Below are positions 3,361 to 11,643 of a DNA stretch of 30,774 bases, one piece after another. The notes under the pieces are model-generated. The model made no database searches. It was not told the DNA's origin and saw only the letters and a list, made by a program, of their open reading frames with translations. This DNA comes from a virus, in IMG/VR virus record IMGVR_UViG_3300036791_001914, positions 1 to 30,774 of that record, one strand, 5' to 3'. Made by a program: the position numbers and the translations under genes. How positions within the stretch are numbered: the stretch's first letter is position 1; each line of letters opens with the position of its first letter.

Positions 3361-5650
3361 CGTTAAGGGGCGCAGAGCCCCGGCTCCATATCTGAAAAAT
3401 ACCAGCGCAGTAATGGCTGGTATTTACTTATCCGCAGCACCTCGCGATACACCCGTTTACGATCCGAATGACAGACCTCTTACGCGTGACGAATACCGTC
3501 AGGCGCAAGAAGTTTTCTCGCTGATTAATTCCCTGCCTCATAACCTCGCAACGCACTTTACTAACCGCTGGCTGACGAAGAAAAAAGAACTCGGCCAGGT
3601 TGGCGGCCTGCGTTTCCTGACCAGGACGTTTAAAGACCGAACATGGCCGCGCCTTGAAAAGGTGAACGCTCGCCACGGCATGAACATTAACGCCTCTGTG
3701 CGTTTTCTGTCTGAAAGTGAGGAATATTCCCGCCTGCCGATGCTGAAGAGTAAGGAGCTGGAAAAGCTGGCCGGTCGTATCGCTGCGGCGCTTTTTTCTG
3801 CTTACGATGAGCTGGCTGACGCCTTTGCCGCTGAGCATGAAAGCGAGGGGGATAAAAACGAGGTGTTATTCACGGCCAGCGCACAATCATATCTTTACGG
3901 CAAGGTGGCCGGGGCGGCTCGCGCTTTAAACGTCACGCCGTTGCACTGGAAAAAATACCGCAAGGGTAAACTAACGATAGCCAATGCCTACTCGGCTGTT
4001 AGTCGCCTGTTTAAAGATGAATGGTGGTTGAATCAGCTTAAGGCGCAGCGTACCCGCTGGAATGAAGCGCTGTTGATTGCTGCTGGCCTGGTGAATAAAA
4101 CCTATTCCCCTTACGCCAGTAAACAGGCTGTGCGGGAAGTGCAGGCGCGCCGCCTGGCTAATCTGGAATACCTGAAACAATGCGAGCTGGAGAACGTCAA
4201 TACAGGCGATCGAATCGACCTGATTGATAAAGTGCTCAAAAGTATTTCTAACCCTGAAATCCGCCGTATGGAGCTGATGAATACTATTGCCGGGATTGAG
4301 CGTTACGCGGGCAGCGTGGGCCATATCGGCATGTTTATCACCCTCACCACGCCATCAAAATATCACCCGACGCGCATCGTGGGAAAAGATAAGACCGTTC
4401 AACTCAATCATAAGTGGAATGACGAGGCGTACAGCCCAAAAGACGGCCAACGTTATCTCTGCAACATATTCAGCAAAATGCGCACCGCGTTTAAAGATAA
4501 CGACCTGCAAGTTTACGGCCTGCGCGTCGTTGAGCCTCACCATGATGGAACGCCGCACTGGCACATGATGCTGTTTTGCGAACGCAGCCAGCGAAAAGAG
4601 ATTGTCGAGATAATGCGCCGCTACGCCATGAAAGAAGATGGCAACGAGCGAGGCGCGGCTAAAAATCGCTTTGACTGCAAGCATTTAATCAAAGGTAAGG
4701 CGGCGGGTTATGTCGCGAAATATATCGCAAAAAATATCGACGGTTACGCGCTGGCCGGTGAAGTCGACCACGACACCGGCAGACCATTAACGGAAACCGC
4801 CGCAGCCGTTAACGCCTGGGCGTCTACGTGGCGAATTCCTCAGTTTAAAACGATTGGTGTACCGACAATGGGCGCTTACCGGGAGCTGCGTAAGTTGCCG
4901 CGTGGTGTCAGCGTTGCCAGTGAATTTGACGAGCGGGTCGAAGCTGCCCGCGCTGCGGCTGATTGCGGTGATTTTGATTTGTATATCGCTGCGCAGGGCG
5001 GGGCGAATGTTCCCCGCGATTCGCAGACTGTCAGGGTTGCCCGCAAAGTTCTGGAAGAGCGAAACGACTACGACGAGGAAGTTAAAAAAGTTGTTGGCGT
5101 TTTCGCCCCGCACCTTGGCGCGGATCGTGTCCACGTCACCCGCACCGAAGAGTGGCGCATTGTCGCTAAGGCCGTTGACGTTGACCTTAATCTTTTGACT
5201 TTAAAGGGCGGTTCATCCGCCCCTCGGAGTCCTGTCAATAACTGTGGGTCAGGTGGTTTTAACACCGGCGCAGATATGACCCCTGCACCGTCTGAGCAAG
5301 CCGCAGCGGTGCTAAATCTTCTCGATAGCGGGGATGTGAGCTGGAGCGACACCGACGTTAAAGCGGTGCTCCGGGGAGCTTTACGCGAACAGTCACCGAG
5401 GGCGAAGTCGTCGCAGCAAAGCCATAACCCGACTAAAGCCAGCAATCACGCACCGTCAGCACGTTTAACCCGCCAGCAGCGCGACCGCATTCCGCGCATT
5501 CGCGCTGAGCTGTCGCAGCAGGACATAACCCCGCAGCGTTGGGAGATTGAGGCGCTGACGCGTGGGGCAACGGTGATTTATGGCGATAAGAAATTCAAAT
5601 ACGCGGCTGCTGATGGGTGGCCGGGGTTTTCAACGATGGAGAATGATTAA
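3350..5650 (+). CDS. A: Replication initiator A, HUH endonuclease
   Basis: Starts rolling-circle replication by nicking one strand at ori and staying covalently attached through tyrosine. The product is 766 residues (P2 A: 761). The HUH motif is HWH at 403-405 within PHHDGTPHWHMMLF, and the two catalytic tyrosines are Y454 and Y458 in GYVAKYIAKN, spaced as in P2 A. The N-terminal 300 residues and the WRIPQFKTIGVPTMGAYREL block also match P2 A. The C-terminus ends DGWPGFSTMEND. P2 carries its own ori inside this gene. The start overlaps the previous gene by 11 bases, and the next gene begins directly after the stop. Confidence 0.95.
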   Translation: MQANVKGRRAPAPYLKNTSAVMAGIYLSAAPRDTPVYDPNDRPLTRDEYRQAQEVFSLINSLPHNLATHFTNRWLTKKKELGQVGGLRFLTRTFKDRTWPRLEKVNARHGMNINASVRFLSESEEYSRLPMLKSKELEKLAGRIAAALFSAYDELADAFAAEHESEGDKNEVLFTASAQSYLYGKVAGAARALNVTPLHWKKYRKGKLTIANAYSAVSRLFKDEWWLNQLKAQRTRWNEALLIAAGLVNKTYSPYASKQAVREVQARRLANLEYLKQCELENVNTGDRIDLIDKVLKSISNPEIRRMELMNTIAGIERYAGSVGHIGMFITLTTPSKYHPTRIVGKDKTVQLNHKWNDEAYSPKDGQRYLCNIFSKMRTAFKDNDLQVYGLRVVEPHHDGTPHWHMMLFCERSQRKEIVEIMRRYAMKEDGNERGAAKNRFDCKHLIKGKAAGYVAKYIAKNIDGYALAGEVDHDTGRPLTETAAAVNAWASTWRIPQFKTIGVPTMGAYRELRKLPRGVSVASEFDERVEAARAAADCGDFDLYIAAQGGANVPRDSQTVRVARKVLEERNDYDEEVKKVVGVFAPHLGADRVHVTRTEEWRIVAKAVDVDLNLLTLKGGSSAPRSPVNNCGSGGFNTGADMTPAPSEQAAAVLNLLDSGDVSWSDTDVKAVLRGALREQSPRAKSSQQSHNPTKASNHAPSARLTRQQRDRIPRIRAELSQQDITPQRWEIEALTRGATVIYGDKKFKYAAADGWPGFSTMEND
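5212..5245 (+). other. Putative replication origin/nick region inside A
   Basis: P2 is nicked by A protein within the A gene, near a stretch I recall as CTCGGAGTCCTGTCAA. The same bases occur here at 5223-5238, encoding the conserved PRSPVN. The match is from memory and the exact nick position cannot be seen. Confidence 0.45.
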
Positions 5651-6608: not shown

Positions 6609-6686
6609 TTGATTAGAAGCAGTTTAATAATTTGAAGGTTCTCAGTCGTTTTTATAGCGTCGGATGAACAAAAAAGGAGGTTGAGT

Positions 6687-7157
6687 ATGTACAGCCCATT
6701 GAATATCGCGAATAAGTTTATAGAGCTTGCTTGCGCGGCTGGTACGCCAATCACCCAGATGCAAGCGCAAAAGCTGACTTACATAGCTCACGGCATAAAT
6801 TTGGGTTACAAGGGTACGCCGTTGTTAACCACGCCTGTTTGCGCTTGGCGTTATGGTCCTGTTGTTCCTGTTTTATATAATTATTTAAAAGGGTTTGGTC
6901 GTATGCCTATAACCCAGCCAATACAGGTTCCACCAGCCATTTCTCAGCAATTTGATCCAATGACAACTCAGCTTTTACAGAACGTTTATAACGTTTATGG
7001 GAAGTATTCTGCTGAGGATTTATCATCCTTTACCCATCGTGAAGGGACTCCTTGGAAGCAAGCGACAGATAATTATCTGGATATCATTCCAGACTCTGTA
7101 ATCCAGGATTACTATCAAAAGTTGCTGCAAGGCGATACCAATTGCATTGGACTATAA
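6687..7157 (+). CDS. Panacea-domain (DUF4065/SocA-like) putative antitoxin
   Basis: The 156-residue product shows the features of the Panacea domain: QKLTYIAHG (28-36), AWRYGPVVPVLY (53-64) and the C-terminal LSSFTHREGTPWKQA (112-126). Panacea proteins are known as antitoxins that pair with many unrelated toxins, and SocA is a proteolysis adaptor of this fold. The start at 6687 is set by AGGAGG ending six bases upstream; a TTG at 6681 overlaps no such spacing. The next gene begins 40 bases later and encodes a membrane protein, the natural partner. It sits between A and cos, a known cargo position in P2-like phages (tin, old and other phage-exclusion genes in P2). Base composition is more AT-rich than the structural genes, a sign of transfer. 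Confidence 0.88.
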   Translation: MYSPLNIANKFIELACAAGTPITQMQAQKLTYIAHGINLGYKGTPLLTTPVCAWRYGPVVPVLYNYLKGFGRMPITQPIQVPPAISQQFDPMTTQLLQNVYNVYGKYSAEDLSSFTHREGTPWKQATDNYLDIIPDSVIQDYYQKLLQGDTNCIGL

Positions 7158-7197: not shown

Positions 7198-7770
7198 ATG
7201 CCTGAAGAAAATAAAAAAGTAACTATAGAGCTTGATAGGGATTTGCTTCAGCGACTTCAGGCTGCTGAGGAGAACCTTAAAACTGCATCCGCAGCCTTAG
7301 GAAGTGAAGGGCAACAAGCGAGTGAGCAACATCAACCAGAAACGGTTCAAGAGATAACCGAGGAAGTTGAAAAAGAAGAAGAAGATGCTGCGACAATGCA
7401 GCGCTTGGATTTGTCCAGTCTTAATCTTCAAATTGCTGAACTTGGAAAGTGCGTTGAAACCCTTAGCACTAACCTTGAAGGTATGCAGGCTGAAACCAAA
7501 AGAAAAAATGCAGAAACCGATGGGCTGCTCACGGATAATAAACTTCGCGAAACGATGGCGGAGAGAACCTACCATTTTATGAGCGTATGGTGTTCATTTG
7601 TCGGCTTTCTCATATTTTGTTATGTAGTTAAAATGAAATTCGAACCCCCTGAAACGGTTATCATTGCATTGATGGGTACAACGACTGTCAGTATTGTCGG
7701 GTTAGTTGGTTTTGTAGTGAGCGGTTTGTTTAAAAGTAACAATAAACCCTCTGGCGATGGCAAAGATTAG
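7198..7770 (+). CDS. Coiled-coil, two-helix membrane protein, putative toxin
   Basis: A 190-residue protein I cannot place in a named family. Residues 8-120 are charged and helical with coiled-coil character, with an acidic patch near 55-64 (EEVEKEEEDA). Two hydrophobic segments follow, about 126-145 (FMSVWCSFVGFLIFCYVV) and 152-178, with a short loop (KMKFEPP) and a polar tail. It thus looks like an inner-membrane protein with a large cytosolic domain. The Panacea gene upstream suggests a toxin neutralised by it; membrane-acting partners are known for Panacea antitoxins. An alternative is a superinfection-exclusion protein. The start directly follows a terminator T-run without a free ribosome-binding site, so a later start (Met67) or tight repression is possible. 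Confidence 0.7.
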   Translation: MPEENKKVTIELDRDLLQRLQAAEENLKTASAALGSEGQQASEQHQPETVQEITEEVEKEEEDAATMQRLDLSSLNLQIAELGKCVETLSTNLEGMQAETKRKNAETDGLLTDNKLRETMAERTYHFMSVWCSFVGFLIFCYVVKMKFEPPETVIIALMGTTTVSIVGLVGFVVSGLFKSNNKPSGDGKD

Positions 7771-7974: not shown

Positions 7975-7993
7975 GGCGTGGCGGGGATAGCAT
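7975..7993. other. cos site (cohesive end)
   Basis: GGCGTGGCGGGGATAGCAT differs at one of 19 positions from the phage 186 cohesive end as I recall it, and at three from P2. It lies in noncoding DNA between the cargo block and gene Q, exactly where P2 has cos. The terminase (P and M) cuts here to make 19-base single-stranded ends. The sequence after it (7994-8133) has no gene. Confidence 0.85.
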
Positions 7994-8168: not shown

Positions 8169-9197
8169 TTATTCAGTCGGAATAAGTTCGTAAGGTTTAA
8201 ATCTGATAACTTCCATTCCGATCCAGTCGTTAAGCTCCTTCATTCGCTCCTGCAATGGCGTCAACTCGTTACGCACAAAGACCTGTGCGGCTTTCACCAC
8301 GTCACCAAATCCGCCGGTGTTGTTCGGCATTACGCCCATCATCTGCGGCGGTACGCGGTGTGCACTCATTAAGTCCTCGGCGCTCGCTTTCTTGATGTTG
8401 AAGAAATCGTCTTTGGTTGCTACCTCGCTGAGCGGCACAATCTTGATACCGTCGGCCTTGCCGTTCGGGGCATAGAAAAACAGATTCTTAAAATTCCCCA
8501 GGCCCTTTGAGCTGCGCATGGCCTTGCGTAGCTCGTCGACGTCGGTGCCGCTTTGCGCGGCGTCAGTGACGTACATGATGTAACCGGCGTGTGCGCCATT
8601 CTGGTAATACTTTCGGCGGAACAGCGTCGCGGATTCATTCAGCCAGGCTGAATTGAGCGCCGCCAGGTATTCCGGCAGACCGTAAATCTCCTGATTGATA
8701 TCAGGCTCCAGCAGATGAAACACCGAGCCCGGCGCAAATTCATGCGGGCTGGTAAACGACTGCACAAACCAGTAAACCCCCTCGGCTACACCTTTTCGCG
8801 TGTACTTGGCCGGTGACGTCTCCAGCTTTAAGAGCCGGTTGGTCATGCTCAGGCGCTTCTCAATAAACGCGTTGCCAAACACCAGAAAATCCAGCGCGAA
8901 GCGGCTGAAATCCTGCTGTGAAAGCAACGGGTGCGGGATAAACGTTGAGGCGAGAATATTGCGCTTAACGTAAATCGGTGAGCTGTGATGAACGGCGGCG
9001 CGCAGCGTTTTCGCAAGGCCCGTAAAACTGACCGGCGGCTCGTACCAGTCACCGTTAGTGACGCATTCCGCGTAATCCAGAATGTCGCGCCGATCCAGTA
9101 CGGCTGACGGCTCGCCAAAGGTGAACGCCTCCATTTTTTGTGATGGGGCCGGGGGCGCTTCCTGCGCCGGGGTGTTTTGCTTTTTGCGCTTGCTCAT
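8169..9197 (-). CDS. Q: Portal protein Q
   Basis: Forms the dodecameric ring at one capsid vertex through which DNA enters and to which the tail is joined. The 342-residue product matches P2 Q in length (344). Typical stretches are AVLDRRDILDYAECVTNGDWYEPPVS near the N-terminus, LLEPDINQEIYGLPEYLAAL in the middle and RVPPQMMGVMPNNTGGFGDV near the C-terminus. The start overlaps the stop of the upstream gene (ATGA). It is the last gene of the leftward packaging operon and is followed by a terminator. Confidence 0.95.
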   Translation of the reverse strand: MSKRKKQNTPAQEAPPAPSQKMEAFTFGEPSAVLDRRDILDYAECVTNGDWYEPPVSFTGLAKTLRAAVHHSSPIYVKRNILASTFIPHPLLSQQDFSRFALDFLVFGNAFIEKRLSMTNRLLKLETSPAKYTRKGVAEGVYWFVQSFTSPHEFAPGSVFHLLEPDINQEIYGLPEYLAALNSAWLNESATLFRRKYYQNGAHAGYIMYVTDAAQSGTDVDELRKAMRSSKGLGNFKNLFFYAPNGKADGIKIVPLSEVATKDDFFNIKKASAEDLMSAHRVPPQMMGVMPNNTGGFGDVVKAAQVFVRNELTPLQERMKELNDWIGMEVIRFKPYELIPTE

Positions 9198-9871
9198 TTC
9201 GCCGCCTTATTTTTTTCCTGCGGCCAGACAGCCGAAAACAGCATGTCAAAATCCTCTGCCGGATACTGCGATTTAAGCGCGGGCAGATCCAGAATTATGC
9301 TCTCCTGGGCGTGTGCGTCCTGGGCGGACAGTCGCTGCTGGTTCTCCGGTTTTTCTGTCGCCCAAAGCCTGTAGGCCTCGTCACTTTGTGAGGGTGTTGT
9401 ATAGGCGGTAAAGCGATATTTTACTTGTGCTGCCAATCCCTTAGCCACCTTGAATAAATTTGCTGGTTTTTCCGCCCAGGCGTATTCACTGACATAAACG
9501 TTTCCATGCTTCGCCGCAAAATGGTCGTACTCGCCCATAAAGCCAATTTCAGCACCGTTCGCCAGCTGGATAGAAGAGCCATCCTGGGGGATTTCTACGC
9601 CCGCAAGTGCGGAAAAGTAAACAATTCGTTGCCGGTTCTGCGCTACTGCGTAGTCTGCGGCGGGTGCCAGAAAATATTGATTGCGGCCCGTCTCGATGGC
9701 GTCAATCAATGCCTCAAGCGAGAAATACCAGTCGGCCCCGCACTGCCGGGTTTTGGTGATGTGGCGGGTGCGGCTCTGTGAAATAAACCAGCGGCGCTGG
9801 TACTCAAAGCCGGTGTGGGAAAGGAGGTTTTTTAACGTGGCGGCTTGCAGGCCGGTAAATTCATAGCGCAT
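9194..9871 (-). CDS. Terminase-ATPase paralogue, degenerate, no nuclease domain
   Basis: A 225-residue protein similar to the ATPase half of the neighbouring terminase P. GFEYQRRWFISQ lines up with SFEYQLGWHKAG of P, TRQCGADWYFSLEALIDAI with SRQIGATFYFSRESLLRAL, and the YTTPSQ stretch with the FSTPST of P. The Walker B site is changed: NVYVSEYAW (S128, E129) replaces DLLVDEIFW (D253, E254 in P). The nuclease half is missing. Both ends are coupled: its ATG shares a base with the P stop (TAATG) and its stop overlaps the Q start. P2 has P directly next to Q. It may be a packaging regulator or a structural partner of the terminase or portal; this is inference. Automatic annotation may simply label it terminase. 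Confidence 0.8.
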   Translation of the reverse strand: MRYEFTGLQAATLKNLLSHTGFEYQRRWFISQSRTRHITKTRQCGADWYFSLEALIDAIETGRNQYFLAPAADYAVAQNRQRIVYFSALAGVEIPQDGSSIQLANGAEIGFMGEYDHFAAKHGNVYVSEYAWAEKPANLFKVAKGLAAQVKYRFTAYTTPSQSDEAYRLWATEKPENQQRLSAQDAHAQESIILDLPALKSQYPAEDFDMLFSAVWPQEKNKAAK

Positions 9872-11643
9872 TAGTTGAACTCCAGAATAGATACGGGGGC
9901 GGTGCCACTACCTGCGGTCAGCGGCTCATTTAAAAGGGCGTGCATGGTTGCCCATGCCACGTCTGCGTGGCTGGCTTCCTCGCTGCGGCTGGCGTCGTAG
10001 GTGGCGCTGCGCCCGCTGCTGGTCATGGTCTTGCGGATTGACATAAACGAGGCGGTGATGTCGGTGTAGCTGACGTCATACTCCAGACAACCGCGGGCGA
10101 TGGTGTCTTTTGCTTTCAGCACCATGGCGGTTTTCACCTCCGGGCTGTAGCGGATTTCACGCGCTGCGGGGTAGAAACCACGGACAAGCTGGTAAACCCC
10201 CTGGCCGATGCCGGTCGCATCGATGCCGATATACTCGACGTGGTATTTTTCGGTCAGCTTTCTGATGGACTCGGCCTGCGTGGCAAAATCCATCCCCTTC
10301 CACTGGTGGCGCTCCAGAATGCGGAACTTGCCCCCGGCGACGACCGGCGGGGCCAGCACCACGCACCCGGCGCTGTCCCCAGTGTGCGACGGGTCATAGC
10401 CTATCCACACCGGGCGATAGCCAAACGGGCGCGTCGCGAACGGTTGCCAGTCGTCCGCCCAGGCTTCCATGCTGTCGACCATGCAGCGTTGCAGCTCCTC
10501 AAACGGAAATACGGACGCCTTATCGTCGACAAACTCGCACATGAAGAGATTGCGGAAATCCTCGGCGCTGTTTTCGCGCTTAAGCGTGTCCAGATTGAAA
10601 AGGTCGCAGCCCCCGGCGAGCGCGTCCTCAATCGTCACAATCTGCCGCCACTGACCATCCGCGCAGGCCATGCCGTTTTTTAGCGCAGCATGGCTGACGT
10701 CCAGGTCGACACACTCGCTTTTATCTGCCCGGCCTTTGTTGAACAGCTCACCTGACCAGAACGGGTAAGCCCCGTGCGCCAGCGTCGACGGGGTGGAAAA
10801 GTAGGTCGAGCGCAGGTGTTGCTGTGAGGCCATGCCGGAGGCGACCTTTCGCAGCTTCTGAAAGTTGGGTATCCAGAAAATTTCGTCGACCAGCAGGTCG
10901 CCGTTATGGCTCTGCGCAGTGTTGGAATTTGTGCCGAGAAAAATCAGCTTTGCGCCGTTGTTGCCGAGTACGATCGGGTCGCCGGTCAGGTCAACATCGA
11001 CCAGTCGCGCAAACTGAATGATGTACTCGCGGAATACGTAGGCCTGCGTCTTGCTGGCCGAGAGGAAAATCTGGTTGTGGCCGGTTTTCAGGGCGCGCAG
11101 CAGCGACTCGCGGGAGAAATAAAACGTCGCGCCAATCTGTCGGGATTTAAGAATATTGCGGATACGGTGCGCCAGCCCGGCCTTGTGCCAGCCGAGCTGA
11201 TACTCAAAGGATTCCGCAAAAAAAATCTCCTCGAGCTTTTCGATAGCCTCCTCGCTGAAATAGTTCTTTTTCGGCTTCTTACGCTCCCCTTTGTTGCGGT
11301 TCGCCACGTTCGGATTTAAGTCAACCTCGTTACCCGTCTGGCCGTAGCGATTCACCCTGGCTAAACGCTCCATTTGTCGTGACAAAAAGTCAGCGACTTT
11401 GAAGTCGTGCGCGGTCAAATCAGGCTTTGCATAGAGCTGAATTAATCGCGCCTCCAGCGTGTTTTCAACCCGGCTTATCGGGGCTGTTTCCTCCCACTGG
11501 TCGCGCTGTTTCCAGCTCTGCACCGTGGGGCGTTTGGTCTTGAGCATTTCCGCGATTTGCGGCACGGAAAAGCCCTGCCAGTAGAGCAGGGCGGCCTGCC
11601 GTCGTGGGTCGTTAAGAATGGAGGTGTCAGTGGTGATGGTCAT
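9871..11643 (-). CDS. P: Terminase large subunit P
   Basis: Motor and nuclease that cuts at cos and pumps DNA into the procapsid. With the start at 11643 the product is 590 residues, the P2 P length, beginning MTITTDTSILNDPRRQAALL as in P2. An N-terminal helix-turn-helix is seen at about 26-48 (VPQIAEMLKTKRPTVQSWKQ). The ATPase region has the phage-type Walker A KSRQIGAT (166-173) and Walker B DLLVDE (249-254). The nuclease half includes the acidic motifs WIGYDPSHTGDSAG and YIGIDATGIGQGV, plus HADVAWATMHAL near the end. A longer open frame to 11793 is ignored. Confidence 0.95.
   Translation of the reverse strand: MTITTDTSILNDPRRQAALLYWQGFSVPQIAEMLKTKRPTVQSWKQRDQWEETAPISRVENTLEARLIQLYAKPDLTAHDFKVADFLSRQMERLARVNRYGQTGNEVDLNPNVANRNKGERKKPKKNYFSEEAIEKLEEIFFAESFEYQLGWHKAGLAHRIRNILKSRQIGATFYFSRESLLRALKTGHNQIFLSASKTQAYVFREYIIQFARLVDVDLTGDPIVLGNNGAKLIFLGTNSNTAQSHNGDLLVDEIFWIPNFQKLRKVASGMASQQHLRSTYFSTPSTLAHGAYPFWSGELFNKGRADKSECVDLDVSHAALKNGMACADGQWRQIVTIEDALAGGCDLFNLDTLKRENSAEDFRNLFMCEFVDDKASVFPFEELQRCMVDSMEAWADDWQPFATRPFGYRPVWIGYDPSHTGDSAGCVVLAPPVVAGGKFRILERHQWKGMDFATQAESIRKLTEKYHVEYIGIDATGIGQGVYQLVRGFYPAAREIRYSPEVKTAMVLKAKDTIARGCLEYDVSYTDITASFMSIRKTMTSSGRSATYDASRSEEASHADVAWATMHALLNEPLTAGSGTAPVSILEFN

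Follow-up and report, generated by a model that had tools for sequence, protein, structure and literature searches.

Although the P2/186 packaging motor is a textbook system, a second ATPase domain lies at its heart in one group of phages. The gene for such a domain, W, lies between the large terminase gene P and the portal gene Q in the window analysed here, a 30,774-nucleotide stretch of viral DNA (IMG/VR record IMGVR_UViG_3300036791_001914, positions 1 to 30,774), and its ATP site differs from that of P at two positions that change together across the W family. We tentatively favour the reading that W serves the P/Q motor as an accessory ATPase-domain partner and probably does not hydrolyse ATP. 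A previous annotation made from the letters alone (the sequence-only reading) presented the gene as an extra terminase paralogue; rather than being new or strain-specific, it belongs to a known family, and alignments and trees identify it as a divergent counterpart of coliphage 186 gene W. As far as we found, the paired exchange of Walker residues, the empty P–Q sites and the cassette-like replacement of W are undescribed in the literature, and no function for the second ATPase domain of the P2/186 packaging motor appeared in the literature searched, which did not cover the original 186 W papers.

The open reading frame (ORF) is undamaged and its product of 225 amino acids (aa) aligns with the ATPase half of the window P, as the sequence-only reading had it (BLASTP 32% identity over 242 aligned positions, E 8e-26). 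W matches Pfam Terminase_6N (E 7.7e-16) and PHROG 3746, “terminase large subunit,” and lacks both the N-terminal helix-turn-helix (HTH) region and the C-terminal RNase-H nuclease domain present in P; Terminase_6C is found in P only, confirming that the nuclease half is missing. A confident AlphaFold2 (AF2) model computed from 23 aligned family sequences (pLDDT 88.6, pTM 0.87) has as its nearest solved structure the ATPase domain of T4 gp17 (2o0h, TMq 0.72), and other close folds include the terminases of P74-26, D6E, and Sf6 and the terminase in the Avs3 complex 8dgc. The modelled W thus has a predicted terminase ATPase domain fold. Fold comparison alone succeeded in this respect: neither the W profile nor P gave a match when searched by sequence against the PDB, NCBIfam holds no model for W, and PADLOC returned only a weak, irrelevant match. 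Features expected of a functional large terminase, the canonical K-S-R-Q-x-G-A-T / D-E motifs and an RNase-H nuclease domain, are both missing from the window W. Full-length homologues that would make the window gene a mere strain-specific truncation of a P copy were not found among the relatives, which are equally short (225–255 aa) except for one 375-aa reading, and truncation in the window strain is ruled out. The 375-aa gene (L057, 3986-5113) has a long extension and a K instead of D in its P-loop, and P and O of the same phage also look altered.

The ATP site of W is altered in both Walker motifs. Walker B reads NVYVSEY in the window W and LLVDEI in P, an Asp to Ser change that the sequence-only reading reported correctly; it overlooked the Thr to Asp change in Walker A (KTRQCGAD in W vs. 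KSRQIGAT in P). We surveyed 121 W proteins, 85 of them distinct and falling into 17 clusters at 70% identity. Walker A/Walker B residues are D/S in 52 distinct proteins, D/G in 19, and D/P in three, with single cases of D/A, K/G, N/G, and a D/G form that also lacks the Walker B Glu, while the seven Eganvirus forms have the canonical T/D that is found in every P examined. Both changes therefore occur together in 78/85 distinct W and neither occurs in any 186-type W; 33 further 186-type loci are all canonical (in one of these the Walker B pattern alone matched), and no mixed state with one change only was found among the 85 proteins and these 33 loci. Two collection scans and one genome scan used GAD-containing patterns and are biased toward the swapped forms, but a tblastn search of phages and the 186-type scan, neither of which used a GAD pattern, also returned no mixed state, and a profile search of 392 genomes, although built from swapped forms, recovered a 186-type W and likewise no mixed state.

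Other parts of the site are retained. The P-loop lysine is present in 85/85 distinct W and the arginine in 84/85, and almost all have the Walker B Glu. Conservation across W is highest at the nucleotide-pocket residues, and the motif ITKTRQCGADWYFSLEALIDA is invariant except at one position among W of 55–95% identity. Because the T→D and D→S/G/P/A changes are always paired and the pocket is the best-conserved part of the protein, decay does not fit the window’s group, and the site appears to have been rebuilt in a coordinated way and not lost piecemeal. In most lineages W appears unable to act as a standard ATPase. The description “catalytically degenerate” from the sequence-only reading suits the window’s group, which is uniformly altered, but not the 186 group, where T and D are intact; likewise, homologues with an intact Walker B exist as 186 W, but there are none in the window’s group. 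Both types can share a host, as genome G111 holds two P2-like prophages (L103, L104), one with a canonical 186-type W and the other with a swapped W. In the terminases of P74-26 and herpes simplex virus, a trans-acting arginine finger lies 11 residues before the catalytic Glu (PMC7196598). The corresponding position is not Arg in W or in P (at all loci for P, read by eye from the alignments).

Position and coupling tie W to the packaging genes. W lies between P and Q on the same strand and is translationally coupled to them, with overlaps of 1 or 4 bases in 114/117 scored loci. The sequence-only reading described one-base overlaps at both ends, which holds for P/W (TAATG), whereas W/Q share four bases (ATGA, 9194-9197); its broader view, that a second terminase ATPase domain has been retained, has an altered ATP site, and is coupled to P and Q, stands. 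In the 186 record, P, W, and Q belong to a single B-activated operon running from p12 to the terminator tW. Loci without W have P and Q overlapping or coupled directly, and P2 is, as had been claimed, one of these, with no W and with P and Q directly joined. Whether the gene is always at P–Q in other P2-like phages can be answered with nearly always: in L061 (same contig as L190) a W-like gene (3929-4651; RQIGADWYF, YAPEW) lies in the gpA–Q interval, downstream of gpA and on its strand, and P and Q directly overlap on the opposite strand. In P2-like phages of E. coli, this interval is a described hotspot for anti-phage genes (PMC9122126).

W is present in 186, PSP3, SW9, SI22, EtG, Midge, BIS20, and two Yersinia phages. 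In the 186 record (U32222.1) it is flanked by the P homologue and the portal gene and annotated as “W protein, similar to Orf12,” and PSP3 gp2 is annotated as “similar to 186 W.” The window gene shares the features that define the family, namely the P–Q position, an ATPase domain only (~225–255 aa), and grouping with 186 W. In our trees W forms one clade apart from every P (support 100/99), including P of distant Peduoviridae (Burkholderia, Pseudomonas, Vibrio, and Acidovorax phages), which shows a single, old split of W from P and rules out a recent duplication of the neighbouring P.

W is also patchy and fast-changing, the profile of an accessory gene. The profile search of the 392 genomes, all Enterobacteriaceae, found roughly ten W vs. 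about 110 P, so that most P2-like prophages lack W, and its presence changes at least seven times on the P tree. The ratio of nonsynonymous to synonymous substitution rates (dN/dS) is 0.13–0.50 for W, which rules out a pseudogene, and mostly 0.006–0.064 for P of the same phages (0.175 in L055/L060, where W is about equal), with Q mostly between the two. Purifying selection on W is 2–20 times weaker than on P in nearly all pairs, and these values therefore indicate that W is kept by selection but changes faster than P. Almost all copies have an intact ORF. Two are broken, in prophages L102 and L107 (genomes G335 and G392), and both adjoin broken P genes; there, W decays with the packaging genes. 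Nucleotide identity falls across W and recovers at the portal, and in an alignment of L104 (with W) and L081 (without W) the W insert spans the P stop codon to a point inside the variable N-terminal tail of Q. This tail, in which the right-hand border of the cassette falls, is cleaved off in P2. W is exchanged, or diverges, independently of its neighbours. A portal N-terminal signature of W-carrying phages, suggested by the same pair (MSKRK vs. MSEPE), fails across loci, as L054 and L058 carry W without it and L086 and L097 have it without W.

Position, coupling, and homology together argue for a role of W at the packaging motor. W is an old, single-origin offshoot of the P2-type large terminase that has kept only the ATPase domain and shares one late operon with P and Q. 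It may bind the ATPase ring of P and/or the docking site of P on the portal Q, and could thereby bias motor assembly, start-up, or substrate choice, in the window form probably without ATP hydrolysis. Non-catalytic subunits of other ring ATPases likewise have a remodelled nucleotide pocket. Such a role would make this a mixed-subunit terminase. Essentiality of W in 186 would favour this reading: each letter on the 186 map names an amber complementation group, so that W would be needed for growth in laboratory hosts, but the gene letter is an unsure guide because the portal coding sequence in the GenBank 186 record is also tagged gene W. Several results weigh against a motor subunit. An obligate subunit should co-diverge with its partners, but Spearman correlations of distances across 23 phages are 0.18 for W–P and 0.22 for W–Q, compared with 0.87 for P–Q. 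P of L104 and L081, which differ in W presence, differs at 7/588 residues (98.8% identical) with a similar Q, which also disfavours an essential co-adapted partner of W encoded in P, and L052 and L105 have 96% identical P and 99% identical Q but 37% identical W. Patchiness, fast change, and swapping alongside constant P and Q favour an arms race or, at the least, a role that is dispensable and exchangeable. These phages provide natural experiments, in which the same motor occurs with no W, one W, or a W only 37% identical.

One form of arms race would be counter-defence, with W mimicking the large-terminase ATPase domain and occupying or blocking host sensors (Avs-type and other STAND proteins that resemble NLRs) for terminase or portal, thereby shielding P and Q during their synthesis. 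W comes from the same operon as P and Q, and Avs1-4 recognise both the large terminase and the portal (PMC12931631). The patchiness of W, its fast turnover beside constant P and Q, and the location of the L061 gene in an anti-phage hotspot (PMC9122126) would fit such a decoy. Furthermore, a P4-encoded TIR-NLR blocks P2, which has no W, but 186, which has W, escaped all P4-encoded systems tested (PMC9122126); this is a correlation only, and the two phages have many other differences. Conversely, dN/dS of W is below 1, its conserved part is the buried pocket and not an outer face, and late expression may come too late, and we consider a decoy unlikely. A pure decoy would also fail if 186 needs W in laboratory hosts. 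We likewise regard as improbable an extended version, in which W is a mimic of the phage’s own packaging ATPase, made in step with P/Q, that blunts immune sensors or parasites recognising terminase or portal; here the paired relocation of Asp would have turned an ancestral motor domain, still present in 186, into a non-hydrolysing bait, whose gene would pass between phages as a cassette reaching from the P stop codon to the portal N-terminal tail. If a decoy, W would represent a new route of evasion from terminase-sensing immunity.

Fast turnover and swapping could also reflect conflict with competitors, where W would act as a dominant-negative subunit, joining or poisoning the terminase of a co-infecting phage or of a terminase-borrowing, P4-like satellite, or limiting packaging to the phage’s own cos. 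Such a protein would be expected to look like W, with its terminase ATPase fold but neither a nuclease domain nor a canonical ATP site, and P4 does borrow the P2 terminase (PMC9122126). We give this possibility little credence, as the 186 group has an apparently intact ATP site, and as W, being co-expressed with its own P, would have to leave that P unharmed, although one and the same P is found with different W types. Moreover, 186 serves as a P4 helper although it carries W. Alternatively, W might still be active as a spare motor ATPase whose metal-binding Asp has moved from Walker B to the P-loop, forming mixed or alternative rings with P. Canonical motifs in 186-type W, the retained lysine, arginine, and Walker B Glu, and the pairing of T→D (rarely K or N) with D→S/G/P/A in 78/78 non-186 forms, which would relocate an acidic residue within the pocket, are consistent with activity. 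However, we know of no catalytic arrangement with a P-loop Asp and without a Walker B Asp, and a few forms have K or N in place of D, so that retained activity seems doubtful to us. Finally, weaker purifying selection than on P and absence from most P2-like prophages could suggest a functionless, decaying duplicate kept only by P–Q translational coupling. This is very improbable given the intact ORFs (the broken copies adjoin broken P), the dN/dS values, the near-invariance of the motif ITKTRQCGADWYFSLEALIDA, and the direct coupling of P and Q wherever W is missing.

The window also holds a candidate cos site downstream of Q (Table 1), which we take to resemble the P2/186 cos. Next to it in the gpA–Q interval is a gene for a Panacea-domain (SocA-like antitoxin) protein (6681-7157, + strand), followed 3′ by a gene for a 190-aa protein (7198-7770, + strand) with a coiled coil and membrane stretches predicted by eye and no Pfam family. 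The two are possibly a toxin–antitoxin pair in the known P2-like accessory hotspot.

Table 1. Features of the W locus and its surroundings in the window
Feature	Coordinates	Strand	Basis
W-family gene, stand-alone terminase ATPase domain, 225 aa, ATG start; 186 gene W counterpart	9194..9871	-	ORF calling, Pfam, BLASTP, AF2
P, full-length large terminase (HTH, ATPase, RNase-H nuclease), 590 aa; KSRQIGAT and LVDE canonical	9871..11643	-	
Q, portal protein, 342 aa	8169..9197	-	
P/W overlap, 1 base (TAATG)	9871..9871	-	
W/Q overlap, 4 bases (ATGA)	9194..9197	-	
Changed Walker A (P-loop) KTRQCGAD, residues 40-47; D47 where P has T	9731..9754	-	Alignments
Changed Walker B NVYVSE, residues 124-129; S128 where P has D; E129 kept	9485..9502	-	Alignments
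Motif III (coupling motif) TTPS, residues 158-161, kept	9389..9400	-	Alignment
Candidate cos GGCGTGGCGGGGATAGCAT, downstream of Q	7975..7993	+	Single window match at up to 3 mismatches

Among known systems, complete E. coli genomes hold prophage genes beside P that RefSeq names “terminase large subunit domain-containing protein”; these include both 186-type and GAD-type W, a likeness in name only, with no function assigned. Large terminases of the P2 gpP type share a homologous ATPase domain and fold (Terminase_6N) with W, which differs from them in its non-canonical Walker residues and in lacking both the N-terminal HTH region and the nuclease domain. The Yersinia phages vB_YenM_201.16 and vB_YenM_56.17 (Duonihilunusvirus), whose W genes are annotated as a second “terminase, ATPase subunit,” share with the window the P–Q position, GAD in Walker A, and the loss of the Walker B Asp, but their W has Gly and not Ser at that position, is 39% identical to the window W, and is ~29 residues longer. 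Finally, 186 gene W and PSP3 gp2 (Eganvirus) have the same P–Q position, operon, and stand-alone ATPase domain and fall in one clade with the window gene; 186 W is nevertheless only 32% identical to the window W, though P is 84% and Q 78% identical, and it combines a Walker A T with a Walker B D where the window W has D and S.
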